A DNA stretch of 64,000 nucleotides from IMG/VR virus record IMGVR_UViG_3300036939_000021, positions 41,885 through 105,884 of that record; one strand, 5' to 3'. Shown piece by piece: positions 254-61,679 of this stretch; position 1 is the first letter of the stretch; the number at the start of each line of letters is the position of its first letter. A model generated the notes under the pieces. It had not been told where the DNA came from. It did not search any database and worked only from the letters and a program-made list of their open reading frames with translations. Position numbers and translations under genes: made by a program. This stretch comes from a virus.

Positions 254-973
254 ATGTCAGTTATTCAACAATGGCAGGGATCGGATATAAGATTTGAGAC
301 GCGTAAGGATGGACGTGTTTGGGGATGCCTTACAGATATGGCACAAGCAACAGGCAAACTAGTAGCCGATTATCTACGTCTTGTATCTACCCAAGATTAT
401 TTACAAGCTTTATCAGATGATATGGGAATCCCCATAGCTAACATACTTTATGCTATTCCAGGTCAAAAAACAGGAACTTGGGCTATTGATGAAGTAGTAA
501 TAGATTTTGCACAGTGGTGCAATGTAAAGTTTCGGATTTGGGTGAATCGTGTTATTCGGAGTTTGATTATAGAGAAATCAGCATCATTTTTAGATGATTC
601 TGTAGAAGAAAAAGCTTTATCGATGATTAGCAATTTAATTAATCAGATGGAAGCAAGTGTGAGTGATCCGTTAGCTGTTAGTCGTTATGGTAAGGCTATT
701 GATGTTTTGAATGTAACATTACATCGTAATCAAACGGCAATGTTAAAGGATATCAAAACTAACTCTGTTTCTGATTTCTTAGAACAACACGTAGAAGAGT
801 TTAAAGGAGAGAAGATGATAGCGAAAGACTTGTATCACAGTTATTGCCGTTTTTGCTTAAAAAATAAATATACAAAAGAGACATTAACATCTTTTGGTAA
901 ATATGTTAGTACAGTGTATGAAAAACATCGTACAAATAAAGGAGTAATTTATTTAGATATGCGGTTAAAATAA
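254..973 (+). CDS. KilA-N/BRO-type regulator
   Basis: A 239-residue protein with an N-terminal KilA-N-like domain, roughly residues 10-105 (IRFETRKDGRVWGCLTDMAQ, then GTWAIDEVVIDFAQWCNVKF and RIWVNRVIRSL). The C-terminal half is unassigned and lysine-rich. KilA-N and BRO-N domains are DNA-binding modules of phage antirepressors and regulators. The start follows AGAAGGATTTTGCAAG, with a usable AAGGA site. It is a paralogue of the protein at 60894-61679: the N-terminal third is nearly the same and the C-termini diverge. A rho-independent terminator follows at 1006. Function as regulator or antirepressor is inferred from the domain family. Confidence 0.8.
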   Translation: MSVIQQWQGSDIRFETRKDGRVWGCLTDMAQATGKLVADYLRLVSTQDYLQALSDDMGIPIANILYAIPGQKTGTWAIDEVVIDFAQWCNVKFRIWVNRVIRSLIIEKSASFLDDSVEEKALSMISNLINQMEASVSDPLAVSRYGKAIDVLNVTLHRNQTAMLKDIKTNSVSDFLEQHVEEFKGEKMIAKDLYHSYCRFCLKNKYTKETLTSFGKYVSTVYEKHRTNKGVIYLDMRLK

Positions 974-2471: not shown

Positions 2472-2825
2472 TTATTCTTTTGTTTCCATCCAGTCTGCTA
2501 GTTTGGCTTTTCCTCCTTTTTTAATTATTCTCGTGTATTCTTTGTATTTTTCTTTGTCAGCTTTGCAAATTTCGGTCAAGTCTTTCAGAGTCATTTTAGA
2601 GAAGTTTGTCGGTTTTTCTGGAGGACTTTCTATAGGAATAATTTCTTGTTTTGGTTCTGGTTTTTTGATGATTTCTTTTGGCTTTTCTTCTGGTGTGTAG
2701 GGCTTGACTGGTGGACAGTAAGTAGCCATCCAGGTTATGTGAGAGTGGTAGAAAGCATGAGCGATGATTCCAGAGAATCCTATGATTGCAATAGACTCGA
2801 TTGCTGAGGTGAGAAGTGCTTGCAT
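2472..2825 (-). CDS. Membrane-anchored protein with SAP/Rho-N-like C-terminus
   Basis: A 117-residue protein in three parts. Residues about 5-28 form one hydrophobic segment (SIAIIGFSGIIAHAF). Residues 38-72 are a proline- and lysine-rich linker. Residues about 78-115 (MTLKDLTEICKADKEKYKEY, then GGKAKLADWM) look like the Rho-N/SAP-type helical module found in DNA-end and nucleic-acid proteins. The layout suggests a membrane-tethered nucleic-acid binder, which is inference. It has its own early promoter at 2915-2943 and its own terminator. Confidence 0.65.
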   Translation of the reverse strand: MQALLTSAIESIAIIGFSGIIAHAFYHSHITWMATYCPPVKPYTPEEKPKEIIKKPEPKQEIIPIESPPEKPTNFSKMTLKDLTEICKADKEKYKEYTRIIKKGGKAKLADWMETKE

Positions 2826-7587: not shown

Positions 7588-9516
7588 GTGGAAGTCTCAG
7601 AAAGTATGGAAGATTTTAAGAATAAAAACATCCCCGGAATAATCGAAGGTGCTGGTATTGGAGGTAAAGGAGGTGGCACTCCTGATCAAGATAGGATTTC
7701 TGGTACTTCTACAGCATATGTATACGCTCTTTTTGGTATAGGTGAAGGCACTATTGAAGGTTTAAAAGCGGGTGCAAAGTCTATTCAACTTGATGGCACA
7801 CCTATAGAGAATGCTGATGGCACTAAAAATTTTAGTGATTTTAAATTTATATTTACTCCAGGTTTGCAAAGTCAAGCTAATATACCATCAGAAGCAAATG
7901 AAGTAAGTTCTGAATCTGCTGTAGGTGTAGAAGTTCTAAAATTATTTCCTGTAACTCGACAAATAACAAATCCAGATATTAATGGTATTCGTATAAGACT
8001 CGGTTTTCAATTACAAGAACAAGAAAAAGAAAGTGGTGATATTAATTCTTTAGCTTGTAATTTTGCAATATATATAAAAGAAGGTAATGGTGCTTTTGTA
8101 GAAAGATTAGCTTATAGAAATAATGAGTTTAAATACCGTTTTACAAGTCTTACAGAATTTACTTATTTTTTTCCTGTTAATTCACAAATAACAGATACCT
8201 TTCAAATAAAAGTTGAAAAAATTTCAGAAGATGCTGTAGATAATGAAGATGTTGTACAGCAACGTACTGTAAGGTGGCAAGCATATGCAGAAGTTATTCA
8301 AGATACATTAGAGTATCCTTGGACTGCATTATGTTATATGCAATTTCCAGGAAATGCCTTTAAAAGTGTCCCAACACGTAAATATTTAGTTGGGGGTATA
8401 AAGTGGCTTATTCCGACGGTATTTACTGTAGGTGCTGATAGAGGATTAGATTATAACGGTCAAGCTTGGGGTGGAGGTTTTTACGAACCTGATAAAGCAC
8501 CAGCTGATGCTGCTTGGGTAGTATGGGGATTGCTTACAAATAATAGATATGGTTTAGGAAGAAAAATAGCAGGTCGTTTAGGATTAGGTAGAGGATTACA
8601 AGAATCTGACATAGATAAATTTGCGCTGTATCAGTGTTCTTTGCATAACAACGGTATTATTCCAGACGGATTTGGAAATACTGAAAGACGTTATAGTGCT
8701 AACGGAATCTTACAAGGCTCTCAAGATGCTTGGGAGATGATACAGAGTGTTTGTAGTAATTTTGCTGCAAAAGCTTATTGGAATGGTTCACAGATAAGTT
8801 TTTGGCAAGATCGCCCTTGGATTGGATTACCAAGAGCTATTTTTACTAATGCAAAAGTTGTAGATGGAAGGTTTATATATACAAGTCAGGAATGGAAGGG
8901 AATTACAACAGTTGCAAAAGTAAGTTGGAATGATCCGGCTCAGGATTATGGCTTAGTCCCCGAACCTATAGAATATCAACAAGGTATTTTAGATTGGGGA
9001 GTACATGAAGATGAGTTTTCTGCTTTTCTCTGTACTTCTCGTGGTCAAGCTTATCGATTAGGTTTAAAAAATATTTTAACTTCTTTACTTGAGACTGAAA
9101 TGGTAAGTTTTCGAGCATTACCAGAATCTTTTTATTGCCGTCCTGGAGATGTAATTCAAGTTCAAGATAATCGTAGAACACAAACTAGAAAGGGTGGATT
9201 AATAACTTCTGCTACCACAACTTCTATTACAGTAGATTTAAAAAATCCAGTAACTCTAGTCGGTACATCTCCATATAAAGTAAGAGTAACTTTACCCAAT
9301 TTACAAGTAGAAGAAAGATTTATAAGTAATGGTGCTGGAACGCATTTAACTTTATTACCAACACAGCCTTTTAGTATGCCACCTCTTTCTCATGCAATTT
9401 GGTTAGTACAAGATGGAGCTGCTCTTGAGATGCTATATCGAATTATTTCTATAACTCCTGGTGAAGCAGAAAATAAAATGATTTATGAAATCAGCGCTAA
9501 AACTTATGCTGGTTAG
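7588..9516 (+). CDS. Tail hub/tip attachment protein, gpJ-like
   Basis: A 642-residue protein similar in course to the conserved part of lambda gpJ: the opening DQDRISGTSTAYVYALFGIG, the TRQITNPDINGIRIRLGF segment, and the hub region around WEMIQSVCSNFAAKAYWNG. gpJ forms the central tail hub and closes the tail tip. It is shorter than lambda gpJ (1132) and lacks the C-terminal fibronectin and receptor-binding part; a free fibronectin-like protein is at 24793 and separate fibres lie at 14.6-23 kb. Start is GTG at 7588; ATG at 7606 is an alternative. It stands alone on this strand, away from the M-L-K-I genes. Confidence 0.8.
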   Translation: MEVSESMEDFKNKNIPGIIEGAGIGGKGGGTPDQDRISGTSTAYVYALFGIGEGTIEGLKAGAKSIQLDGTPIENADGTKNFSDFKFIFTPGLQSQANIPSEANEVSSESAVGVEVLKLFPVTRQITNPDINGIRIRLGFQLQEQEKESGDINSLACNFAIYIKEGNGAFVERLAYRNNEFKYRFTSLTEFTYFFPVNSQITDTFQIKVEKISEDAVDNEDVVQQRTVRWQAYAEVIQDTLEYPWTALCYMQFPGNAFKSVPTRKYLVGGIKWLIPTVFTVGADRGLDYNGQAWGGGFYEPDKAPADAAWVVWGLLTNNRYGLGRKIAGRLGLGRGLQESDIDKFALYQCSLHNNGIIPDGFGNTERRYSANGILQGSQDAWEMIQSVCSNFAAKAYWNGSQISFWQDRPWIGLPRAIFTNAKVVDGRFIYTSQEWKGITTVAKVSWNDPAQDYGLVPEPIEYQQGILDWGVHEDEFSAFLCTSRGQAYRLGLKNILTSLLETEMVSFRALPESFYCRPGDVIQVQDNRRTQTRKGGLITSATTTSITVDLKNPVTLVGTSPYKVRVTLPNLQVEERFISNGAGTHLTLLPTQPFSMPPLSHAIWLVQDGAALEMLYRIISITPGEAENKMIYEISAKTYAG

Positions 9517-32073: not shown

Positions 32074-35000
32074 AAAAATAGCATATGTCTTTGATATATG
32101 TACAGCAATCTGATATCCTTAAATTATTGACATTTGTTTTTAGAAGTGCTATACTTTCTACTGCTTCCAAATGCCAGAAACCAAAGTATTCAAATAGTTG
32201 CATACTATTAAAATTGAATATTGGTTGACCTCTACTGAAAGATCCTTCCATCAAACCTGAAGTAACAAAATTGCATTTAAGAAAATCGTAAGAAGCTTTT
32301 ATTCCTCTTAAAGTTACAGATGAATTTCTACCAGAGATATCAGCTATATTTGCATAAATAAACATTCTAAGAGCTATTGCAGCAAAATGAATAGTTCGAT
32401 AATTACTTACTGGATCAATTTCAGCATAAAAGTCTGTTGGAGGTTGAAACTTTTTATTTCTTAAATAGTAACTACTTAACCAATTAATAAAGCCCATACT
32501 AATTTTTTTAGCTTGTGCTTTTAATTTTTCAAAATCAGTAGGTAGCGGAATATTAGTAGGAAATTCACCGATAGCCATTCTGTACCAAGCATGAGCTACA
32601 CTTTCAGCTGGTCTAATTTGATAACCTTCCCAATTTGTATTAGGGTCAACACCCTGAAAAGAGAAAAAGTCATATTGACCTTTTTCAAGTTGAAGTGAGT
32701 CCCAATACCCCCAGACGTAGGTAGGAGCAAAAACACCATAAGTTTTATTTTTATTTTGTTGTCGATAAGCTTCTTGTGCGTCTTCTAAAAATTGTAAAAC
32801 TTGTCGAAGTCGATCCCAATAACCCATTTTGACGTACCAACCCGGATATTGATAACCTGTTGCTGGCGCGCCTCTCCAACCTTCTACAGTTTGTCGAGTA
32901 CCACTACCATCATCAAAAACATTTACAGTAAACGGAACAACACCGGGATTATAAGGAAGAATATCGCTAGGACTTCCTATAGGTTTAAAATCTCCTATCC
33001 ATAGAGTATGAGCAACTTTAAGACGGCTAACTATGACAGCTTTATAACTTTTAAGTGTTCCAAGTAATCTATAAGGTTCTTGACCTACCCAAAATATCCA
33101 AACTTGGCTAGCTGTTGGGCTAGCTACAAATTCAAAATTTGTAATAATATTTCCGCTGGGTGTTTTATTATCAAAATCTTTAAATTCGTTAGATTGAAAA
33201 CTAGATTTTACCCAATCAGTAGTCTGAATTGTTTTTCGATATTCTTTACCTGCAATCGTAAGTTTTATTATTGCAGTACCCTGTACTTTGTATTCCATCG
33301 TAAAAGGTAACGTTGGCAATCTTCCTAATAAATCTGGTGCAATACCTTTTGTTACTAAACCAGCACCAGCAAAATTACCATTAGCTGATAAGGTTATCTT
33401 AAAAACTTCATTTCTTATTCCGTTTATTTCTGGATACTCCTTTACAATATTTGCTACACCATCATCACCTTTATAGGTGTAAATAGGATTATCAGCGATC
33501 CTAGTATGCCAGACAGTTTGTGCCTCATCCCATAAAATAAATTCATTTTTATTAAAATTTGCAATAGTTGTTACATTAGCAACTACAGGTAAATATCTTT
33601 TATAATATTGTGAAAAATCAAAAGGATTGGGTTTAAGACTAATAATTAATTCTAATTCTGTTGTAATACTACAAGCTACTTCTACATATACTGTAGTATC
33701 GTCATCAAGTGTCGCAGTAACAGCATAGTTAGAAAATTCAATACTTGGATATTGAGCGGTAGAAGTTGGTATAACAACTTGTAAAAAATCTTTTTTATCT
33801 CCAGATATTACTCTGGAATTATTAACAATTCGATCATTTTTTGGAACTATTACAATTTGAGAACCCGGATAAGCAAAAGGATTTAATACATCATCTTTTT
33901 TATACCAATGTGTTAAATTTATGACTTCTGCTGAGATTGCCTCTGTATATTTATTACAGTTATAGGCTACTGCCCAAATAGGATTAGTAGGCTCTATTTG
34001 AGTCATACTCTCATAAGCATCAGATGCCCAGGGGAAAACATCAATAGCACCAAGAGCTTCTATAGGTCTTAAAAGTCTCCACATCGGATAAGCTTCAAAA
34101 CCTGTATTAGCGGGTACTACAGCACCAACATATGCAGCATAAACAACTTTAGCAGTACCAGTATAATTAGTTTTTAATTTTATTATTCCAGGGTTTTCGT
34201 TTGTTTGTGTAGGTGCTTTTCCTCCAGGTTGTGAAGATTCTGGATAATATCGAACTATTACACCTTCTAATAAAATATTGCTAGTCCAATATTCGATATC
34301 CCACCAAAATCCTCCTAGCGGTTCAGCATAAACATTTTGCCAAAGTAATTGATCTGTTTCTGGATAAACTCGATAGACATCACTAAGCAATTCTCCAAAA
34401 TTAGGAGAACCATTAGGAATAGTAGTAATCCCATTATTAAAATTTAGTATTAAATCAAAAAAGCCATAGTTTAAAGGATCGCTTGAAACTTTACCTTTAG
34501 TAACAAAAGATTCTGTTGTTATCAACCAATGAGGTACTCTAATACCTTTGTCGGGTGTCCAATTGGATTCTATTTTTAATGGATAAAAATAATTTAATAA
34601 CGCATTACCACAAGCAATTGCTAAATTTTTATATCGGACATCTCCCGTAACTTGGAAAGCATAAGCACAAGCTCTAGTAATAACAGCTTGTGCCTCTGTA
34701 GGAGCGCCAGAACTAGGAAAATATCCACCACGACCTAAAACCTTGTGGAAACTATTTCTAAGTACATATTGAGCATTAAGAATATATGGATAATCAGCTT
34801 TTTGCCATCTTAACAACCAACTAATAGCACCATTTAAATGCAAATCTAAATTTGTATCATTAACCGATTCTTGTAATTTTGCTAGAGTTTCTTCTTTAGT
34901 TTTTGTTATATCGTAATCCTCAGCAGCTTGTTTAAGAGCTGATTTTCTAAAAGGTTGATAGCTTCTTTTAAAACTTAAATCTATTTGCCAAAAATAGGGA

Positions 35001-35674
35001 GCAATGTAAGTATTACTCCAAGCCATACAAGTGTATATATTATTACGAAATCTAAACGGGCGTGATGCCAAATCACGCATAAAATTGTTAGTAAGCTGTC
35101 TCTCTGACTCCGAGACAGTTTTTGACAAAGACCAAGTATCAACACTGGAATTATAACCATATCTTGTTCTTGTTTCTATTCCACCATTTTTACGAGTTGT
35201 AAGAGTTTTTATATTAAAACTTCTATTAGAATTATATGTAATTTCAAAAGGAAAATTAGGATAATCTTCTAATAAATCAATATCTTTAATAGAACATTCA
35301 TCAATATACCAATGATTCCACTTAGAAAATGTAAATTGTACTTTCCATAATCCAGATGCAATCTGATTAATATTCCATTTATCAGCTATATATTCTCCTA
35401 AATTATCGATGCCCAATTCCCAATTGTATGTTGTTTCTCCTACAGGTTTAGGTTTACGTAATCGCCATTCTAAAGGATTAATACCCTGATAGTTTTGAAT
35501 AATATCTACAGAACTTAGATCGGTTACGGTTCCTGATAAATTCCAAGATTCCTCTATAATTTTTCCTGTTGGTATTCCAAGAATTTCAAAACAATCACCA
35601 AGTTCTTTATTATTAGAAAAGATACTATAATTTACCGATACTCCATATTCAGGGTTAAATTGAAATTCTGGCAT
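32072..35674 (-). CDS. Fusion of two gpM-like tail modules with a large hydrolase-like C-terminus
   Basis: A 1200-residue protein. Residues 1-125 resemble the free gpM-like protein at 23799; residues about 130-240 resemble the one at 23039 (shared NGGIETR). From about 260 the chain is unrelated: helix pairs with many aromatics (AVITRACAYAFQVTGDVRYK; AESVAHAWYRMAIGEFPTN) and a beta-rich middle (about 600-880). Paired helices with W/Y-lined grooves recall (alpha/alpha)6-barrel polysaccharide enzymes. It probably docks in the tail tip by its M modules and exposes a glycan-acting or glycan-binding part. Catalytic residues are not identifiable by eye. Confidence 0.6.
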   Translation of the reverse strand: MPEFQFNPEYGVSVNYSIFSNNKELGDCFEILGIPTGKIIEESWNLSGTVTDLSSVDIIQNYQGINPLEWRLRKPKPVGETTYNWELGIDNLGEYIADKWNINQIASGLWKVQFTFSKWNHWYIDECSIKDIDLLEDYPNFPFEITYNSNRSFNIKTLTTRKNGGIETRTRYGYNSSVDTWSLSKTVSESERQLTNNFMRDLASRPFRFRNNIYTCMAWSNTYIAPYFWQIDLSFKRSYQPFRKSALKQAAEDYDITKTKEETLAKLQESVNDTNLDLHLNGAISWLLRWQKADYPYILNAQYVLRNSFHKVLGRGGYFPSSGAPTEAQAVITRACAYAFQVTGDVRYKNLAIACGNALLNYFYPLKIESNWTPDKGIRVPHWLITTESFVTKGKVSSDPLNYGFFDLILNFNNGITTIPNGSPNFGELLSDVYRVYPETDQLLWQNVYAEPLGGFWWDIEYWTSNILLEGVIVRYYPESSQPGGKAPTQTNENPGIIKLKTNYTGTAKVVYAAYVGAVVPANTGFEAYPMWRLLRPIEALGAIDVFPWASDAYESMTQIEPTNPIWAVAYNCNKYTEAISAEVINLTHWYKKDDVLNPFAYPGSQIVIVPKNDRIVNNSRVISGDKKDFLQVVIPTSTAQYPSIEFSNYAVTATLDDDTTVYVEVACSITTELELIISLKPNPFDFSQYYKRYLPVVANVTTIANFNKNEFILWDEAQTVWHTRIADNPIYTYKGDDGVANIVKEYPEINGIRNEVFKITLSANGNFAGAGLVTKGIAPDLLGRLPTLPFTMEYKVQGTAIIKLTIAGKEYRKTIQTTDWVKSSFQSNEFKDFDNKTPSGNIITNFEFVASPTASQVWIFWVGQEPYRLLGTLKSYKAVIVSRLKVAHTLWIGDFKPIGSPSDILPYNPGVVPFTVNVFDDGSGTRQTVEGWRGAPATGYQYPGWYVKMGYWDRLRQVLQFLEDAQEAYRQQNKNKTYGVFAPTYVWGYWDSLQLEKGQYDFFSFQGVDPNTNWEGYQIRPAESVAHAWYRMAIGEFPTNIPLPTDFEKLKAQAKKISMGFINWLSSYYLRNKKFQPPTDFYAEIDPVSNYRTIHFAAIALRMFIYANIADISGRNSSVTLRGIKASYDFLKCNFVTSGLMEGSFSRGQPIFNFNSMQLFEYFGFWHLEAVESIALLKTNVNNLRISDCCTYIKDICYF

Positions 35675-36440: not shown

Positions 36441-39400
36441 ATGTCTACATCTCTTGGACGGTTAACACTAGATTTAGCCGCAGATCCGACACAACTTAAT
36501 AATGATTTAAATGCTGTTAAAGCTCATGCTCAACAGATAGCAAAAGATATAGAAAATAGTTTAAGACAAGCTTTTCAAACAGCAGGATCAGCAGCAACTA
36601 ATGCAGCAAACCAAGCTAACCGAAATAATAATACGGGTACGAGTAATAATTTTTTTTCTGGTTTAAATAATAGTTTAACAAGTTTTACTACAAATATTAG
36701 AACTACTTTTGCATCTTTACGTACTTTAAATTTTACTAATATTTTTAGAGGCTTAAAAACTTCATTTCAAAATATACCACAAATAGCCCAAAATGCTATT
36801 AGAAATTTACCAAGAATATTAAAAGCGGGTGTAGCAACTTTACCTATTGTTTTAGCTGCTGTCGGAATAGAGGCAGGAAAACGTTTAGGTCAAGGAGTAT
36901 TAAGTGCAACAAGAACAGGATTAAGCGGTTTAGGACGTTTAGCACAAAAAGCAGGAAGTACAGTAGCTAGTAGTTTTAATGCAGGTTTGGGTGCTATAGC
37001 TTTTGGTGCTTTTACAAGTGCTGGAGTTTCTGCATTTAATACCGTTACAGGTGTTATAGGAGGTGCAATTAATCAAGTTAAAGGATTTGGAGGAGAGTTA
37101 TTTAACACTTTAAAAGAAGTTCAAAAATTTGATGCACGTCTTAAAACTTTTGTAACCGATACAGAAAAACGAGCTGAACTAAATAAACGTTTAAATTCTT
37201 TTGCTGCAACCACACCTTTTGAATTAAAAGATATTCGTGAATCTGCAATAAAAAATCTCAGCACTATGGCTGATCCGTCTAAATTAAATTTAGATAAATA
37301 TATGGCAGATTTAAAAGCACTAGGAGATGTTGCAGCAGGTTCTCAACAACCAGTTGGAGAATTAGCGGATAAATTTGCTAAAGCACGTTCAGAAGGAAAA
37401 GCACAAAATGAAGATTTACAAGAATGGGCAGGTAGAGGCATACCCATTTATCAAGAGTTAGGAAAACTCTTAGGAGCTACAGCAGCAGAAGTCAGACAAA
37501 TGGCTACAGATGGAAAAGTAGATTTTGAAATGCTTTCTGCTGCTGTTAGTTCAATGACTCAAGAAGGAGGAGTATTTTTCAAAAGTATGGAAAATCAAGC
37601 TGGAACATTAGAAGGTAAAATTTCTAATATTTCAGATACTTTCTACCAATTTAAAGAACAATTAGGTAAAGCTTTTGAGCCTCTAGCTAATTTAGGCGTT
37701 GATATCTTTGGTGAAATAGTCTCAAGCCTTAAAGATTCTAAAGGTGTAATGGAAGATATTACAAAAGAAACTCAAAAACTTGCAGATTATTTTAAAGAAA
37801 ATCCAGAAATAGCAAAATCTTTAAACAAGGCACTACAAGACATTATTCGTGGTGCAATGAAAGGTCTAGTTAATGGTGTTAAAAGTTTTACAGAATTTCT
37901 AAAAGATAATCCAGATATTATAAAACAAATTGCAACCGGAATAGCTACAGTATCTAAAACTATTGCACAAGTCGTTGGATATGTTGTAGATTTAGCTTCT
38001 ACTTTTGGTGGTGCTGTTGCCGATAATATAGCAAAAAACCAGGATTTAATTACTGGAATAATAAATATAATTCGGGATATTGTTGATAAAGCAATAGAAA
38101 TTGCTTCAGTTTTTGGTAACACGATTCTTAATGCTGTAAATGAAAATAATTTTCTCATTGAAGGAATGAGAAATATTGTTACAGCCATTTTAGATTTATG
38201 GTATCAACATAAAGATACTTTATTATTAATTGCACAATCTATCGGCTCTCTTGTAGTAACAGCTTTAAAAGTTGTTATAGATTTAGTTTTAGGTATTCTT
38301 AATTATCTTAAAGAACATCCAGCAATTATACAAACTATAGTTAAAACAGTACAATTTCTTTCTGCAATATTTGAAGGAATTCTTAAAACTATTGGTTTAT
38401 TACTTCAGGGTTTAGGTTGGGTGATAGAGAAAGTTACTCAATGGGTAGCAGCTAATCAACCAATACAAACATTTTTTGATGGTGTTAGTACAGCAGTCAC
38501 CGGAATAATAACCGGAATGGATAATATTATTGCAAAAACTTTTGATTGGTTAAAAAAATTAGAACCTGTTCAAAAAGCTTTAGAGTGGATAGGTAATTTA
38601 AGTAATAGTGGTGGTGATAATAGTGGTAATGAGAATAATGGAGAAGTTCAAGATATAGGTAATTCCATGAATGGGATGCTTAATACTATGGGAGGGAGTT
38701 TTGATCCTTTTGCTGGTGGTTCTAATTCTTTTGCTGCCAAAGTTGTAGGACATAGCGAAGGGAACAGAACTGCTACAGGCGGTTTTAATGCTAGTTATAA
38801 AGGACATAGCGATCCTGGTAATGCTCAACATAACGTGGGTAGTTTCAGTATGCAAACTGGAACTCATGGAATGAAATCACCCGAACAAGCTGATATATAT
38901 TGGCAAGGAAAACTAAAAGGTGTATGGAATCAGTTCGTACAAGCCGCACAAAAAGCAGGATTAGATCCAAACAATCCAACACTTGCAGCAAATTTTTTAG
39001 ATTTGTATACTCAATCTCCTGCTGCTGCTGTAGAAGGTATGACATCTTTTATTAATAATCTTGACAAAATTAAAGCAGGTGGAGGAACAGAAGAAGCAAT
39101 ATTAAAAACACGATTAGCGGCATTTCATAATAGTGCTGGAAGATTAGAAGCATGGACAGATATAGGAGGTTTAACAGCAGATCAAAAAAGAAGAATGTCA
39201 GCATTACAAGCAGCGATGCCTAATGCCACTAAAGGTATGCAAATGAGTAGTAGTGGAGGATTAGAAAATTTTCCTGAAAAAAATACAGGTAGCAGACGTG
39301 GTGGGAAAACTATAGCTCATCCAAGTGGTGGATTAACTATACATGATTCCGCTGGTGGAACTATCGATAAATATAGTCAGCTAACGGTACATCATCCTAG

Positions 39401-42400
39401 TAGAGGAACTAGAGGTAGAGAATCCGGACGGAATTATTTAGATATTGGTGGACGTTTAGAAGAAGCAAGAATAGGTGGTGATGTAGCTGGTGGTGTTCCT
39501 CATATTAAAAAAGATTTTGTATTAGAGGATAAAAATGGAAGTCTTGATGTAGGTATGCCAGCACCTACATCAGGTATTGTTTCTGCTATTTATCCAGAAG
39601 TAGGAGCTGTTGTAATTGGAGACGGTAAAGGAGGACGTAAAGGTGCTGCTCTACATATGAAAAATATTAGAGTAAAAGTAGGGGATAGAGTTTCTTATGG
39701 TCAGATAATTGGTACACAGTCTTATACAGGTAGTGAAGCTGTACACGCTCACGTAGAACTACCATTAAATGAATTTCCTAGATATATTGCAGATTTAAGA
39801 TCAGGTCGTTTTGGTTCAGCTCCAGAATCTTCTAATTCCGATGATAAAAGTTTAGGTAACTTTAACGAAAGAGGTACTGGTAGTAACAAACCTTCTAATA
39901 AAACTACACCAAAAGTTAGCAGTTCAAGTGGAGGTTCTAGAGTTGCTGCTGCTACGAGTACAAGTAATGTTAGTGGTACTTCTTCTAGTAAAAGTTCTGT
40001 TTCTAGCTCTAGCACTACAAGTAATAGCAGTGGAGGTCTTGTAGCACCTAAAGTAAGCTCTATCACAGTATCGCCTCAAGCTAAAAGAGATTTACTTACC
40101 GCTCGTCAAAAAGAACAAGAAAAATCTTATAAAGAGATTGCTGATGAAATAGCATTCTCTCAACGTACTGGTAATGCTCAACAAAAACAACAACGAGAAT
40201 TAGAAGATACAGCAAGAAAGCGTCAAACAGAAGAAGTAAAAGCCAGATTACAATTACAGATAGCTAAAGCAGAATCACCGGAAGCTAAGAAAATTTTAGA
40301 GAAAAATCTTCAACAGTTTGATGTTGACACTAAATATGAAGACGAACTCAAAAAATTACAACGTCAACGAGAAGATTTAGTAAAATCTCAACAAAATAAA
40401 ATAGCCGCTATTAAAAAAGCAGAAGAACGTAAAAACGAATTTATAGAACAAAAACGAAAAGCGGGTGAAGAATATACACCAGCAGATTTAGAAAAATTCA
40501 AAGTAACACCTGATGAAGGTGCAATGATGGATTTCTCAAAAGCAATCAAAGACGTTGATAAAATGATTGCTTCTCAGAAAACTTTAAAAGAATTAGAACT
40601 CCAAACCCTTGGAATAAGTGAATCTATCGAAGAACGTCAGGAACGACGTGCTAAACAACGAGAACGTGATATAGAACAACTTAAACGTCAAAGTGCTATT
40701 GAAATTGATAGTTTGAAAAAACTGGAATCTTCGGTAACTGATGAAGATTTAAAAAAACAAATACAAGAAAAATTATCTAAAACTGAATTACAACTTAATG
40801 CAAAAATAGAGCTAATGCCAATTGATGACCAATTGGAAGATTTACAGTTAGCATTATCAGAAGTACTTGCAGCAGGAATTAAAAAAGATGCACCAGAAGC
40901 ACAAGAAATACAAAAACAAATAGACGAATTAAATAAACAAAAAGCAGAAATAGCTAGAAAATCAGGATTAGATTTAACCCTCTTAGAAAACGAGCGTAAG
41001 CAAGCTGATATAGAACGAGAACGTGAAAAGAAAGCCGAAACTAATGCTTTAACACATCGTACTAAAATAGCTGAAATTGATAGTAAAATTACTTCAGCTC
41101 GTTCTGATACGGAAAGAGCTACTTTAGAATTTGAAAAAGAAAGATTAAGTTTATTACAAGAACAATCAGAAGAACAACAACCTCTATTAGATAAATTAGC
41201 TGATTTACAAAAAGATAAATCAACACTCTTAGGAAACGGTATTAAAGAATCATCGGAGGAAATGAAAATCCTTAATGATTCCATTGGTACTGTTACTCAG
41301 CAATTACTTTTATTACAAAAAGAAGGTAAGACAGCTTTAGGCACTCTTACTAAAGAATCTCAAAAAGCTATAGATGAAGCTAAACGTGCTGACTCTAGCA
41401 GATTATTAGAAAAAGAATCTTTACTATCAGGTAGCGATCTCAAATCTTCACGTTTAGAACAAATGCGTGAAAGAGATGCTGATCCATATAAAACATCAGC
41501 TTTCGAGAAAGAGATAGCAGCATCACAAGAAGCATTACGCTATCGTCAAGAAATGTTAGACATTGAAGAGAGAATAGCAAGTTTTCGTGATACTAATGCA
41601 GAATTATCGGTAACAGAAGAAAACCAACTCCGGAATAATGCAAGAGCAATTCATGAAATTAATTTAGAAAAAGTAAATGATAACGTCAGAACACTTGGAA
41701 AAGATTTAAGTAGTATAGGTAAAGGTGCTGTTAAAGATTTTTTTGGTCAGTTAGTTTCTGGCAGTATGGACTTTAACAGTATTATGCAAAATATAATTTC
41801 TCAAATAGGTAATCTTGCGGTAGAACTTATTCAATCACATATTTTCGGAGAAGATGGATGGTTTGGTAAAAAATCTAAAAAAGAAGAAAAATCTGGGGGT
41901 GGTTTCTTAAGTGGGTTATTAGATGGCTCTCAAACACCCTCTAGCTTATTAGGTGGAAGTGGAGCGGGTGCAAGTCCTCTACAACCTGCTTTTGTGTCTG
42001 TAGTAGGCAGTGGAGGAGGTATAGGAGGATTGATAGGAGGTGCTACAGGTACAAGTAGCTTTGGAGGTGGAACCGATTTTATTAGTGCAATATTTGGTGG
42101 AGGAGGTTCTATTAATAAAACCAATCCCTTACCGATAGATATGGTTAGCGCTGATAAAAATGCCTTTAGCGGTCTAGGGGATATCTTCTCTGGTATCTTT
42201 GGAGGTGGCTCTAGTGGAGGTCTAGGAGGGATGCTAGGGGGATTATTCGGAGGAGCTACCGGGGGATCTACAAGCTCACCTGGAGGAGGATTATTTGGAA
42301 GTATTCTTGGAATCTTACCTAGTATTTTTGGATTTGCTGATGGTGGAAGAGTTCAAGGTGTAAAAATAGATAAACTTCCTAATCCAAGCGAAAATCCTAT

Positions 42401-47157: not shown

Positions 47158-47186
47158 ACTATATGCCTAAAAATGCAATATGTCAA
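47158..47186 (-). promoter_or_regulatory. Early promoter (minus), TTGACAT family
   Basis: Minus strand TTGACA (47186-47181), 17-bp spacer TATTGCATTTTTAGGCA, TATAGT (47163-47158). It drives the helicase. Confidence 0.85.
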
Positions 47187-47191
47187 TAAAA

Positions 47192-47551
47192 TTATTTTCT
47201 TAAAACATCTCGAATAGTACCAAGTATATCTGAGATACTGTAAGGCTTAGTAATATAACGATCAGCACCTAATTTAAAACCTATTTTTTGATCTACATAA
47301 CGAACGTGAGCAGAAACAAAAATAAAAGGTGTTTTTGGATATAATTCTTTTGCTTCAGTTATTACGTTATATCCTGTAATACCTGGCATCGTTATATCAC
47401 AAAGTATTAAATCAAATTCTTTTTTTCTTATTACATCAATTGCATCACGTCCACCAGATACAGATACTACCTCGTATCCCTCCATTTTTAAAAGTTCTTC
47501 TAAAGCAAACCTATTACCCTCGTCATCTTCAACAACTAAAATTACACACAT
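47192..47551 (-). CDS. Stand-alone CheY-like response regulator receiver
   Basis: A 119-residue receiver domain with no output domain. All phosphorylation residues are kept: acid pair E8/D9/D10, phospho-acceptor D52 (CDITMPG), switch S80 (FVSA), and K102 (TKPY). It should accept phosphate from a histidine kinase or phosphotransfer protein. Its start overlaps the end of the DHp-type gene (47542) by ten bases, so the two are translationally coupled. Phage-encoded receivers are rare; signalling interference or hijack of the host is the likely use. Confidence 0.85.
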   Translation of the reverse strand: MCVILVVEDDEGNRFALEELLKMEGYEVVSVSGGRDAIDVIRKKEFDLILCDITMPGITGYNVITEAKELYPKTPFIFVSAHVRYVDQKIGFKLGADRYITKPYSISDILGTIRDVLRK

Positions 47552-47814
47552 TTCTTTTTAAAAATTACTATATTTTTCTCTTCTATTTGCTTATTCTTTT
47601 GTTCTAAAATTTGTAACTCTTTTTCAAACGATTGCTCTATAATATCTAAATGTTTTTGTATTTGTTCTGAAGTAAGTTTTCCTGAATCTAAGTATTTTTT
47701 TAAAATAGCTACAGATGTTAAACCGGAAGTTATCACATTTCTAGATTCATGATTACGTGCTTGTATAAGTTGCAAAGGACATTGTTCCTCGTATTCGCAA
47801 TTTATCTTAATCAT
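47542..47814 (-). CDS. Histidine-kinase DHp domain without catalytic domain
   Basis: A 90-residue protein. Residues 20-72 look like a dimerisation/histidine-phosphotransfer hairpin: first helix with the H-box ARNHESRNVITSGLTSVAIL (His22, then Glu, Arg, Asn as in HExxN kinases), turn at YLDSGKLTS, second helix EQIQKHLDIIEQSFEKEL. There is no ATP-binding domain and the next gene is a receiver. It could receive and pass phosphate as an Hpt-like protein, or bind host kinases as a decoy. Assignment is by pattern; the pairing with the receiver strengthens it. A TATAAT sequence lies about 20 bases upstream. Confidence 0.65.
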   Translation of the reverse strand: MIKINCEYEEQCPLQLIQARNHESRNVITSGLTSVAILKKYLDSGKLTSEQIQKHLDIIEQSFEKELQILEQKNKQIEEKNIVIFKKKCV

Positions 47815-47829
47815 GATTTTGCTTAAGTG

Positions 47830-47845
47830 AATATTATATCAAGTC
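47830..47845 (-). promoter_or_regulatory. Promoter of the DHp-receiver pair
   Basis: On the minus strand GACTTGATATAATATTC includes TATAAT, about 20 bases before the ATG at 47814. No TTGACA at the right distance, so this pair is under different control from the replication genes around it. Confidence 0.45.
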
Positions 47846-50027: not shown

Positions 50028-50066
50028 ACAACAGAATCATAAATATAATATTTATGATTCTGTTGT
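50028..50066. terminator. Terminator upstream of polymerase
   Basis: ACAACAGAATCATAAATAT pairs with its complement (50048-50066) almost without loop. It ends the small 50073 gene on the minus strand; a GAATCAT variant of the dispersed motif is in the stem. Confidence 0.85.
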
Positions 50067-50072
50067 GAGTTT

Positions 50073-50291
50073 TTAAAAAGTATCTTTCGCTTGCTCTAAT
50101 AATTTTGCTAAATATTCATCAAAAATATCTACCGGAAAATCAAAAGCCTTATCATTATCATCATGTGTTGTTACTAATAAGCCCTCTTCATTATCATAAT
50201 CAAAATCCCATAAACCTAGATTTGGGTTTCTTTCTAGTATTTCTGGATATTTTTCTTTTAGGTAATTATAAAAAATTTCTACATCGTTCAT
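50073..50291 (-). CDS. Small acidic protein, unknown
   Basis: A 72-residue acidic protein (EIFYNYLKEKYPEILERNPN, then DDNDKAFDFPVDIFDEYLAK). An ATG at 50330 would lie inside the promoter itself (-35 at 50347, -10 at 50324), so the start is put at 50291, preceded by AAGGAATTTATC. No family recognised. It is monocistronic, between helicase and polymerase. Confidence 0.65.
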   Translation of the reverse strand: MNDVEIFYNYLKEKYPEILERNPNLGLWDFDYDNEEGLLVTTHDDNDKAFDFPVDIFDEYLAKLLEQAKDTF

Positions 50292-50318
50292 GATAAATTC
50301 CTTAAAAGCTTCATTTCT

Positions 50319-50347
50319 ACTATATGTCAAAATTTAATAGATGTCAA
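50319..50347 (-). promoter_or_regulatory. Early promoter (minus) with tandem TTGACAT
   Basis: Minus strand TTGACA (50347-50342), spacer TCTATTAAATTTTGACA, TATAGT (50324-50319). TTGACAT occurs twice, so TTGACATCTATTA and TTGACATATAGTA form a direct repeat across the promoter. Confidence 0.85.
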
Positions 50348-51812: not shown

Positions 51813-51841
51813 ACTATATGCCATATTTTAATAGATGTCAA
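51813..51841 (-). promoter_or_regulatory. Early promoter (minus), TTGACAT family
   Basis: Minus strand TTGACA (51841-51836), spacer TCTATTAAAATATGGCA, TATAGT (51818-51813). It drives the SF2 helicase. Confidence 0.85.
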
Positions 51842-60893: not shown

Positions 60894-61679
60894 ATGCATA
60901 TTGAACAATGGAAAGGTTGTAATGTTCGTTTTGAGACTCGTAAAGACGGACGTGTTTGGGGATGTTTATCAGATATGGCAGATGCTACGGATAAGCGTTT
61001 TAGTAATTGGTTACGTCTTGATTCGACTCAGGAGTATTTGCAAGCTTTGAGTACTGATTTATCCGGTAAACCTAAGAAAGTTAAAGGATTCTCGACAAAA
61101 AAAGAACAACAAGATTTTTCTAATATCCTTCAGGTAAATCAAGGAGGACTACCTGATCAACAGGGTACTTGGGCTATTGATGAAGTTGTAATGGATTTTG
61201 CTCAATGGTGTAATGTTGATTTTCGCATCTGGGCTAACCGAGTATTACGTAATGTCATTACTCAGGGATACCACGTAGAACCTGAAATCAAGCCACAACA
61301 AGCTTTAGAAGCTCTCTGTAAGGTCTTTACTCGTCTGTTATACAAACCTACTCCAGACGGCTTTAAACAGATGGAGGAGCTAGCCCAGAATCTCCAAGAG
61401 ACTCTAGAAAGACGTGAAGCTCATGCTATGCGTTACATCCGGTCAAGCGATGATCCTATGTATGAAGAGACGGTAGCAGATGCAGCAGTGATGCTCAAGA
61501 ATGATCGGGTGTATGCCAAAGTCGCAAAAGAAATGGTAAGAATGGTTCAACGGTACGCTCTAGAGTACTCTCTAGAAGCTTCTAACCGTAAATTTGAAGC
61601 CTCATATACCCCTAAAGGTAAAAGAGACAATGAACGTGAGATTGAGATGATTACTGAGCAGCTACAGAACTTTAAGTAA
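60894..61679 (+). CDS. KilA-N/BRO-type regulator, second copy
   Basis: A 261-residue protein, paralogue of the 254-973 protein: IEQWKGCNVRFETRKDGRVW and GTWAIDEVVMDFAQWCNVDF are almost the same in both. An insert of about 20 polar residues (near 68-95) separates the two halves of its N-terminal domain. The C-terminal half differs completely from the first copy. Co-transcribed with the RHH gene. Its function (regulator or antirepressor) follows from the domain family only. Confidence 0.8.
   Translation: MHIEQWKGCNVRFETRKDGRVWGCLSDMADATDKRFSNWLRLDSTQEYLQALSTDLSGKPKKVKGFSTKKEQQDFSNILQVNQGGLPDQQGTWAIDEVVMDFAQWCNVDFRIWANRVLRNVITQGYHVEPEIKPQQALEALCKVFTRLLYKPTPDGFKQMEELAQNLQETLERREAHAMRYIRSSDDPMYEETVADAAVMLKNDRVYAKVAKEMVRMVQRYALEYSLEASNRKFEASYTPKGKRDNEREIEMITEQLQNFK

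Follow-up and report, generated by a model that had tools for sequence, protein, structure and literature searches.

A phage gene pair encoding a probable DHp-only protein and a stand-alone receiver, and its likely origin in a cyanobacterial kinase–regulator pair

The stretch of viral DNA analysed here (the window; 64,000 nucleotides) corresponds to bases 41885–105884 of a 105,884-base virus record. An earlier note on this DNA had described two short open reading frames, overlapping by ten bases, as a kinase-like dimerisation and histidine phosphotransfer (DHp) fragment followed by a receiver (REC). Both frames were found at the positions and with the sequences described, the overlap was confirmed as ATGTGTGTAA, and the pair does lie between polymerase and helicase genes, of which the polymerase belongs to family A (PF01612/PF00476) and the helicase is Dda-like (phrog_325). 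In both frames, codon usage fits the annotated frame and agrees with the phage's other genes. The features of the locus, in window coordinates, are as follows.

47542–47814, minus strand: gene for a 90-residue protein, very probably DHp-only (HisKA-type, HEFRTPLT subfamily) and without a CA/ATPase domain; assigned from a subfamily HMM, cyanobacterial matches and a two-helix model
47192–47551, minus strand: gene for a 119-residue stand-alone receiver; Response_reg match at 1.4e-27, with D9/D10, D52, S80 and K102 intact
47542–47551, minus strand: ten-base overlap ATGTGTGTAA between the DHp stop and the REC start, read from the sequence
47749–47751, minus strand: codon of His22, aligned with the phospho-acceptor histidine of kinase H-boxes
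47737–47739, minus strand: codon of Asn26, at H+4, aligned with the Thr/Asn phosphatase residue of HisKA DHp domains (role from PMC3510030)
47713–47730, minus strand: codons of T29–S34 (H+7 to H+12) in helix α1, T-S-G-L-T-S against T-T-I-L-S-S in the family
47158–47186, minus strand: phage-type promoter TTGACA-N17-TATAGT, a few bases past the REC stop and facing the helicase gene
50319–50347 and 51813–51841, minus strand: further copies of the recurrent promoter, which also occurs in loci L002 and L003 of the record
47833–47841, minus strand: TGATATAAT, a possible extended −10 element ahead of the pair, of a pattern found at chance frequency

Copies of the record's TnpB protein with 88–90% identity occur in Aphanothece, Coleofasciculus and Kastovskya, and the polymerases nearest to the record's own belong to Pseudanabaena phages, Nodularia phages and cyanobacterial plasmids. 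This makes the host a cyanobacterium, and probably a filamentous one. No close relative of the phage was found in the collections searched, and a search of IMG/VR found no close relatives of the DHp protein, the receiver, the polymerase, the terminase or the helicase. TnpB, whose 88–90% identical copies lie on cyanobacterial chromosomes, and another transposase (phrog_506) are encoded at record bases 7897–9141 and 34156–35487 (L002 and L003), and mark recent exchange with host genomes. Three proteins resemble the KilA-N type by sequence (window 254–973 and 60894–61679; record 39316–40317); one of them was confirmed by Pfam and carries an additional Pox_D5/RFX-like C-terminal match. A near-perfect 18-bp palindrome with a T tail lies at 50028–50066, between the reading frame at 50073–50330 and the polymerase gene.

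The 119-residue protein matches Pfam Response_reg (PF00072) at 1.4e-27 and has the fold, acidic pocket, phospho-accepting aspartate, Ser/Thr switch and lysine of a single-domain receiver. All of the phosphorylation residues attributed to it (D9, D10, D52, S80 and K102) are present, and it is the sole REC domain in the whole record. Its nearest cyanobacterial relatives are 36–44% identical, and many of these are REC-EAL or REC-GGDEF-EAL proteins by Pfam; the phage receiver has no output domain.

The 90-residue protein has no ATPase domain, as claimed, and no HATPase_c domain is encoded anywhere in the 105,884-base record; lacking the CA/HATPase_c domain, it does not qualify as a histidine kinase. 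Profile libraries gave no significant family match, and neither the generic Pfam HisKA profile nor the genome search made with it recognised the protein. Of the other profiles that the earlier note had suggested, Pfam-A returned no Hpt or SPOB_a hit at E up to 10, subject to HMMER's filters; identity as an Hpt or SPOB_a phosphotransferase was set aside on the same search. Other candidate identities were likewise rejected: DUF2680 and exopolyphosphatase matches were weak and fell below their own cut-offs, and a sequence search of solved structures yielded only coiled coils and an anti-repressor.

Homology to HisKA-type DHp domains emerged from a search of 386 cyanobacterial genomes, in which 33 matches passed a per-genome cut-off of E≤0.02; chance alone would give 7.7. 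Histidine kinases made up 25 of the 30 match loci that were fetched, and in 24 the H-box histidine aligned with His22. The best match reached E=1.7e-5 per genome (~0.007 over all 386), with 36% identity across residues 11–73. Some of the 25 kinases are mutually orthologous, including seven copies of one 484–485-residue protein, so that fewer than 25 independent lineages are represented. When the same genomes were searched with the sequence reversed, eight matches were obtained, the number expected by chance, and none was a kinase. The enrichment for kinases and the kinase-free control together mean that the homology is well supported, though single matches are weak. Beyond these genomes, tblastn searches of phages and plasmids gave only chance-level matches, the single plasmid hit being a kinase DHp domain aligned at His22, and no relatives were found in GTDB contigs.

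An HMM built from cyanobacterial HisKA domains in general gave the protein 8.8 bits, a score exceeded by some 40–50 of 20,000 shuffled sequences, and is too weak to serve as the sole proof of a DHp domain. A second HMM was built from kinases at loci picked by similarity to the phage receiver alone, independently of the DHp protein. With this model the phage protein scored 21.1 bits and ranked first of 20,001, above the highest of 20,000 shuffles (19.3 bits); among the phage's own proteins it also came first, at E 1.8e-6, and the next protein scored 10.6 bits. The difference between 21.1 and 8.8 bits places the protein near the HEF subfamily specifically. The DHp identity proposed earlier is thus supported by homology under two independent controls, the reversed query and the shuffles, and in all probability the protein is a DHp hairpin of the HisKA type.

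A single-sequence AlphaFold model of the monomer contains helices at residues 15–43 and 49–84, with a pLDDT of 63 overall and about 75–80 in the helices. The two-helix layout that had been claimed appears as a hairpin in this low-confidence monomer model. Foldseek returned no significant match to the model and does not discriminate a DHp domain, because HK853 is one of many helical hairpins that it retrieved. The lack of a significant family match and of a specific structural match would suit an unrelated helical hairpin whose likeness to DHp is coincidental. The genome matches, the reversed control, the subfamily HMM and the matching partner family all speak against coincidence, which is accordingly very improbable.

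The loci selected through the receiver also connect the two halves of the pair. The closest receiver relatives, REC-EAL and REC-GGDEF-EAL proteins, are often encoded just downstream of, or overlapping, kinases with a HEFRTPLTTILSSAELLEHY H-box, and a kinase with a HEF[R/K][T/N]P[L/M] H-box stands directly upstream on the same strand at 13 of these loci. Kinase and receiver genes overlap by 4–23 bases in eight of 13 measured pairs (a Hymenobacter plasmid pair counted in, L213 left out) and are separated by a 2-base gap in one more. As the HMM of these receiver-selected kinases gives the phage DHp its top score, both halves go back to one cognate family and keep its gene order, and the pairing is stronger than the earlier note had supposed. 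Descent of the phage pair from one cognate cyanobacterial kinase–regulator pair is accordingly very likely. To judge by its sequence, the pair keeps the kinase-then-regulator order and the overlap, the kinase apparently cut down to its DHp domain and the regulator to its receiver. A second arrangement of a DHp-like domain without CA was observed in a cyanobacterial locus (L170, 1438–2226, plus strand), where a gene directly downstream of a HEFRTPLS kinase encodes a receiver and a HisKA-like domain that has no ATPase and in which the phospho-accepting histidine is replaced by glutamate (TEELRDPM).

In known kinases, the α1 stretch from H+7 to H+12 contacts the response regulator. It is the best-kept part of the phage DHp, where T-S-x-L-T-S is retained. 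His22 is present, within QARNHESRNV, and is followed by Glu23, so that a phospho-acceptor histidine and its acidic neighbour align with kinase H-boxes. Compared with the subfamily, the histidine, the glutamate at H+1 and the arginine at H+3 are kept, and H+4 shows an allowed change from threonine to asparagine (Asn26). Phenylalanine at H+2 has become serine, and the proline at H+5, a usual though not universal HisKA feature that is present in 12 of 12 subfamily members, has become Val27.

These positions bear on which reactions the protein might support. In HisKA proteins, Thr or Asn at H+4 is required to dephosphorylate the regulator, and the acidic residue at H+1 is required for kinase activity (PMC3510030). 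According to the same source, EnvZ and NtrB need nothing beyond their DHp domains for phosphatase activity, and in vivo the isolated domains produce a constitutive phosphatase phenotype. The CrdS mutation P376A, at the H+5 proline, strongly reduced phosphatase activity (PMC3510030), which counts against full phosphatase activity of the phage DHp.

It is proposed that the phage lineage acquired a cyanobacterial HEFRTPLT-type kinase together with the response regulator that followed it, and that both genes were trimmed to the parts that exchange phosphate, the kinase to a DHp hairpin and the regulator to a receiver. Having no ATPase domain, the phage DHp cannot autophosphorylate. Host kinases of the HEF family could pass phosphoryl groups to the receiver, and a DHp dimer, through Asn26 (and His22), could speed dephosphorylation of the phage receiver, of host regulators, or of both. 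Together they would form a phosphoryl sink that keeps a host pathway off, and in cyanobacteria the target pathway would often end in c-di-GMP enzymes (REC-EAL, REC-GGDEF-EAL).

Phosphate could flow through the pair in three ways: the DHp protein might dephosphorylate the phosphorylated receiver or a phosphorylated host regulator, a host kinase might phosphorylate the receiver, or a host CA domain might phosphorylate His22 and, through it, the receiver. The first two flows, as a joint drain, are favoured, since the pair has kept the phosphatase residue and the regulator-facing surface but lost the kinase and output parts. With kinase motor and output domain both missing, the pair may represent a kinase–regulator system reduced to its phosphate-swapping surfaces, one that drains or dephosphorylates a host signal. 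The sequence, family, gene order and intact residues of the pair, and the absence of HATPase from the record, are established; dimerisation, choice of partners, direction of phosphate flow and target pathway are inferred. A function as phosphoryl sink or phosphatase on HEF-family host kinases and regulators is the likeliest reading, with a slightly less than even chance of being correct. The fuller statement, that a trimmed DHp and its cognate receiver, taken from a host pair, act as a catalytic drain on signalling that often ends in c-di-GMP enzymes, is put forward more tentatively.

The third flow would make the pair a forward phosphorelay, in which a host CA domain acting in trans, or back-transfer from a phosphorylated host regulator, charges His22, and the phosphorylated receiver then acts on a partner, for example to time replication. 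His22, Glu23 and the entire receiver active site are intact and the genes lie within the replication cluster, which favours such a relay; the receiver, however, lacks an output domain, positions H+2 and H+5 of the H-box are altered, and no partner gene is evident, so that this reading is considered unlikely. Slightly less likely is a dominant-negative decoy, in which binding and not transfer matters: the DHp protein would form mixed dimers with host HEF kinases or take over their regulator-binding role, and the receiver would titrate the kinase. The regulator-facing α1 surface is better kept than the catalytic surroundings of the H-box, and PIT4 and Osp (below) are binding-only precedents, yet the retention of D9/D10/D52/S80/K102 in the receiver and His22/Glu23/Asn26 in the DHp protein suggests that the chemistry is used. 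The same retention weighs against the reading that the pair is left over from a captured two-component system, decaying and without present function. Decay might explain the loss of the sensor, CA and output domains, the divergent H-box and the failure to find relatives; however, both overlapping reading frames are intact with phage-like codon usage, both genes are cut neatly at domain borders, and a receiver just 36–44% identical to its cellular relatives has had time enough for a useless frame to break. Decay is therefore improbable.

The regulation of the pair was also reconsidered. A recurrent phage promoter, TTGACAT[C/A]TA...CATATA[G/C]T with an N17 spacer, occurs at 18 sites with at most one mismatch in the pieces searched, against ~1.3 expected. 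The pair had been credited with its own TATAAT promoter and separate regulation. The element TGATATAAT is indeed present, but the window contains six matches to its 9-mer pattern TGNTATAAT where 7.1 would be expected, and promoter-like sites overall show no excess over shuffles, which makes the claim of separate regulation weak. Instead, the pair may be reached by transcription that starts at upstream promoters and runs on through the polymerase gene. Record bases 32629–33324 encode a sigma-70-like factor.

The pair is so far a single instance, as no relatives of it were found. The earlier note had called receivers rare in phages. Other phage contigs also carry them, though most database matches labelled as phage resemble bacterial contamination. 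At 18 IMG/VR loci with related receivers, HMM searches found no DHp-only neighbour; a DHp search in four of the 18 receiver-bearing records gave nothing convincing, and a DHp-family scan of IMG/VR found no HEF-family member elsewhere. Four IMG/VR contigs (L214–L217) carry receivers of the phage's REC family, of which that of L217 stands alone; those of L214/L215 and L216 bear unassigned C-terminal tails of 70–85 residues, and the idea that the L214 and L216 tails are DHp domains was tested and found unsupported. L214 also encodes a relative, recognised by eye, of window 2472–2825, which suggests a cyanobacterial host. The open-access literature searched contained no report of a phage-encoded DHp-only protein with its own receiver, in keeping with the earlier statement that this combination was undescribed.

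The closest counterparts of the pair are cyanobacterial HEFRTPLT kinases with REC-EAL or REC-GGDEF-EAL regulators (e.g. L161, L163, L167, L183 and L210). Like the phage pair, these are encoded kinase first and regulator second, often overlapping; they share its DHp α1 sequence type and belong to one REC family with it (M..IL[VI][VI]ED ... PFIF ... LGAD.Y.TKP). Unlike them, the phage pair has no sensor, CA/ATPase or output domains, its H-box proline is lost and its receiver is about 40% identical to theirs. Spo0B, ChpT and Hpt proteins are likewise helical, histidine-carrying proteins that pass phosphate to receivers without kinase activity. A degenerate CA-like domain persists in Spo0B and ChpT but is absent from the phage protein, and the phage DHp descends from HisKA.

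The isolated EnvZ and NtrB domains (PMC3510030, with reference to Zhu 2000 and Kramer 1999) resemble the phage protein as DHp domains alone, with HExxN/T and a paired receiver; those are laboratory truncations, whereas the phage genome itself encodes the DHp alone. The single-domain response regulator Osp inhibits the kinase CckA; like the phage receiver it stands alone, and it can act with no output domain attached. Osp is bacterial, and the abstract describes no paired DHp gene for it (PMC9430884). The phage protein PIT4 is reported to interact with histidine kinase domains and, like the proposed pair, is a phage product aimed at host two-component systems; unlike the pair, it is not claimed in the abstract to resemble DHp or REC (PMC10714779). 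That phages bind host histidine kinases is already known. If the proposal is correct, the pair would be a compact natural counterpart of laboratory-cut DHp domains, and host signalling, possibly linked to c-di-GMP, would be something that cyanophages switch off.
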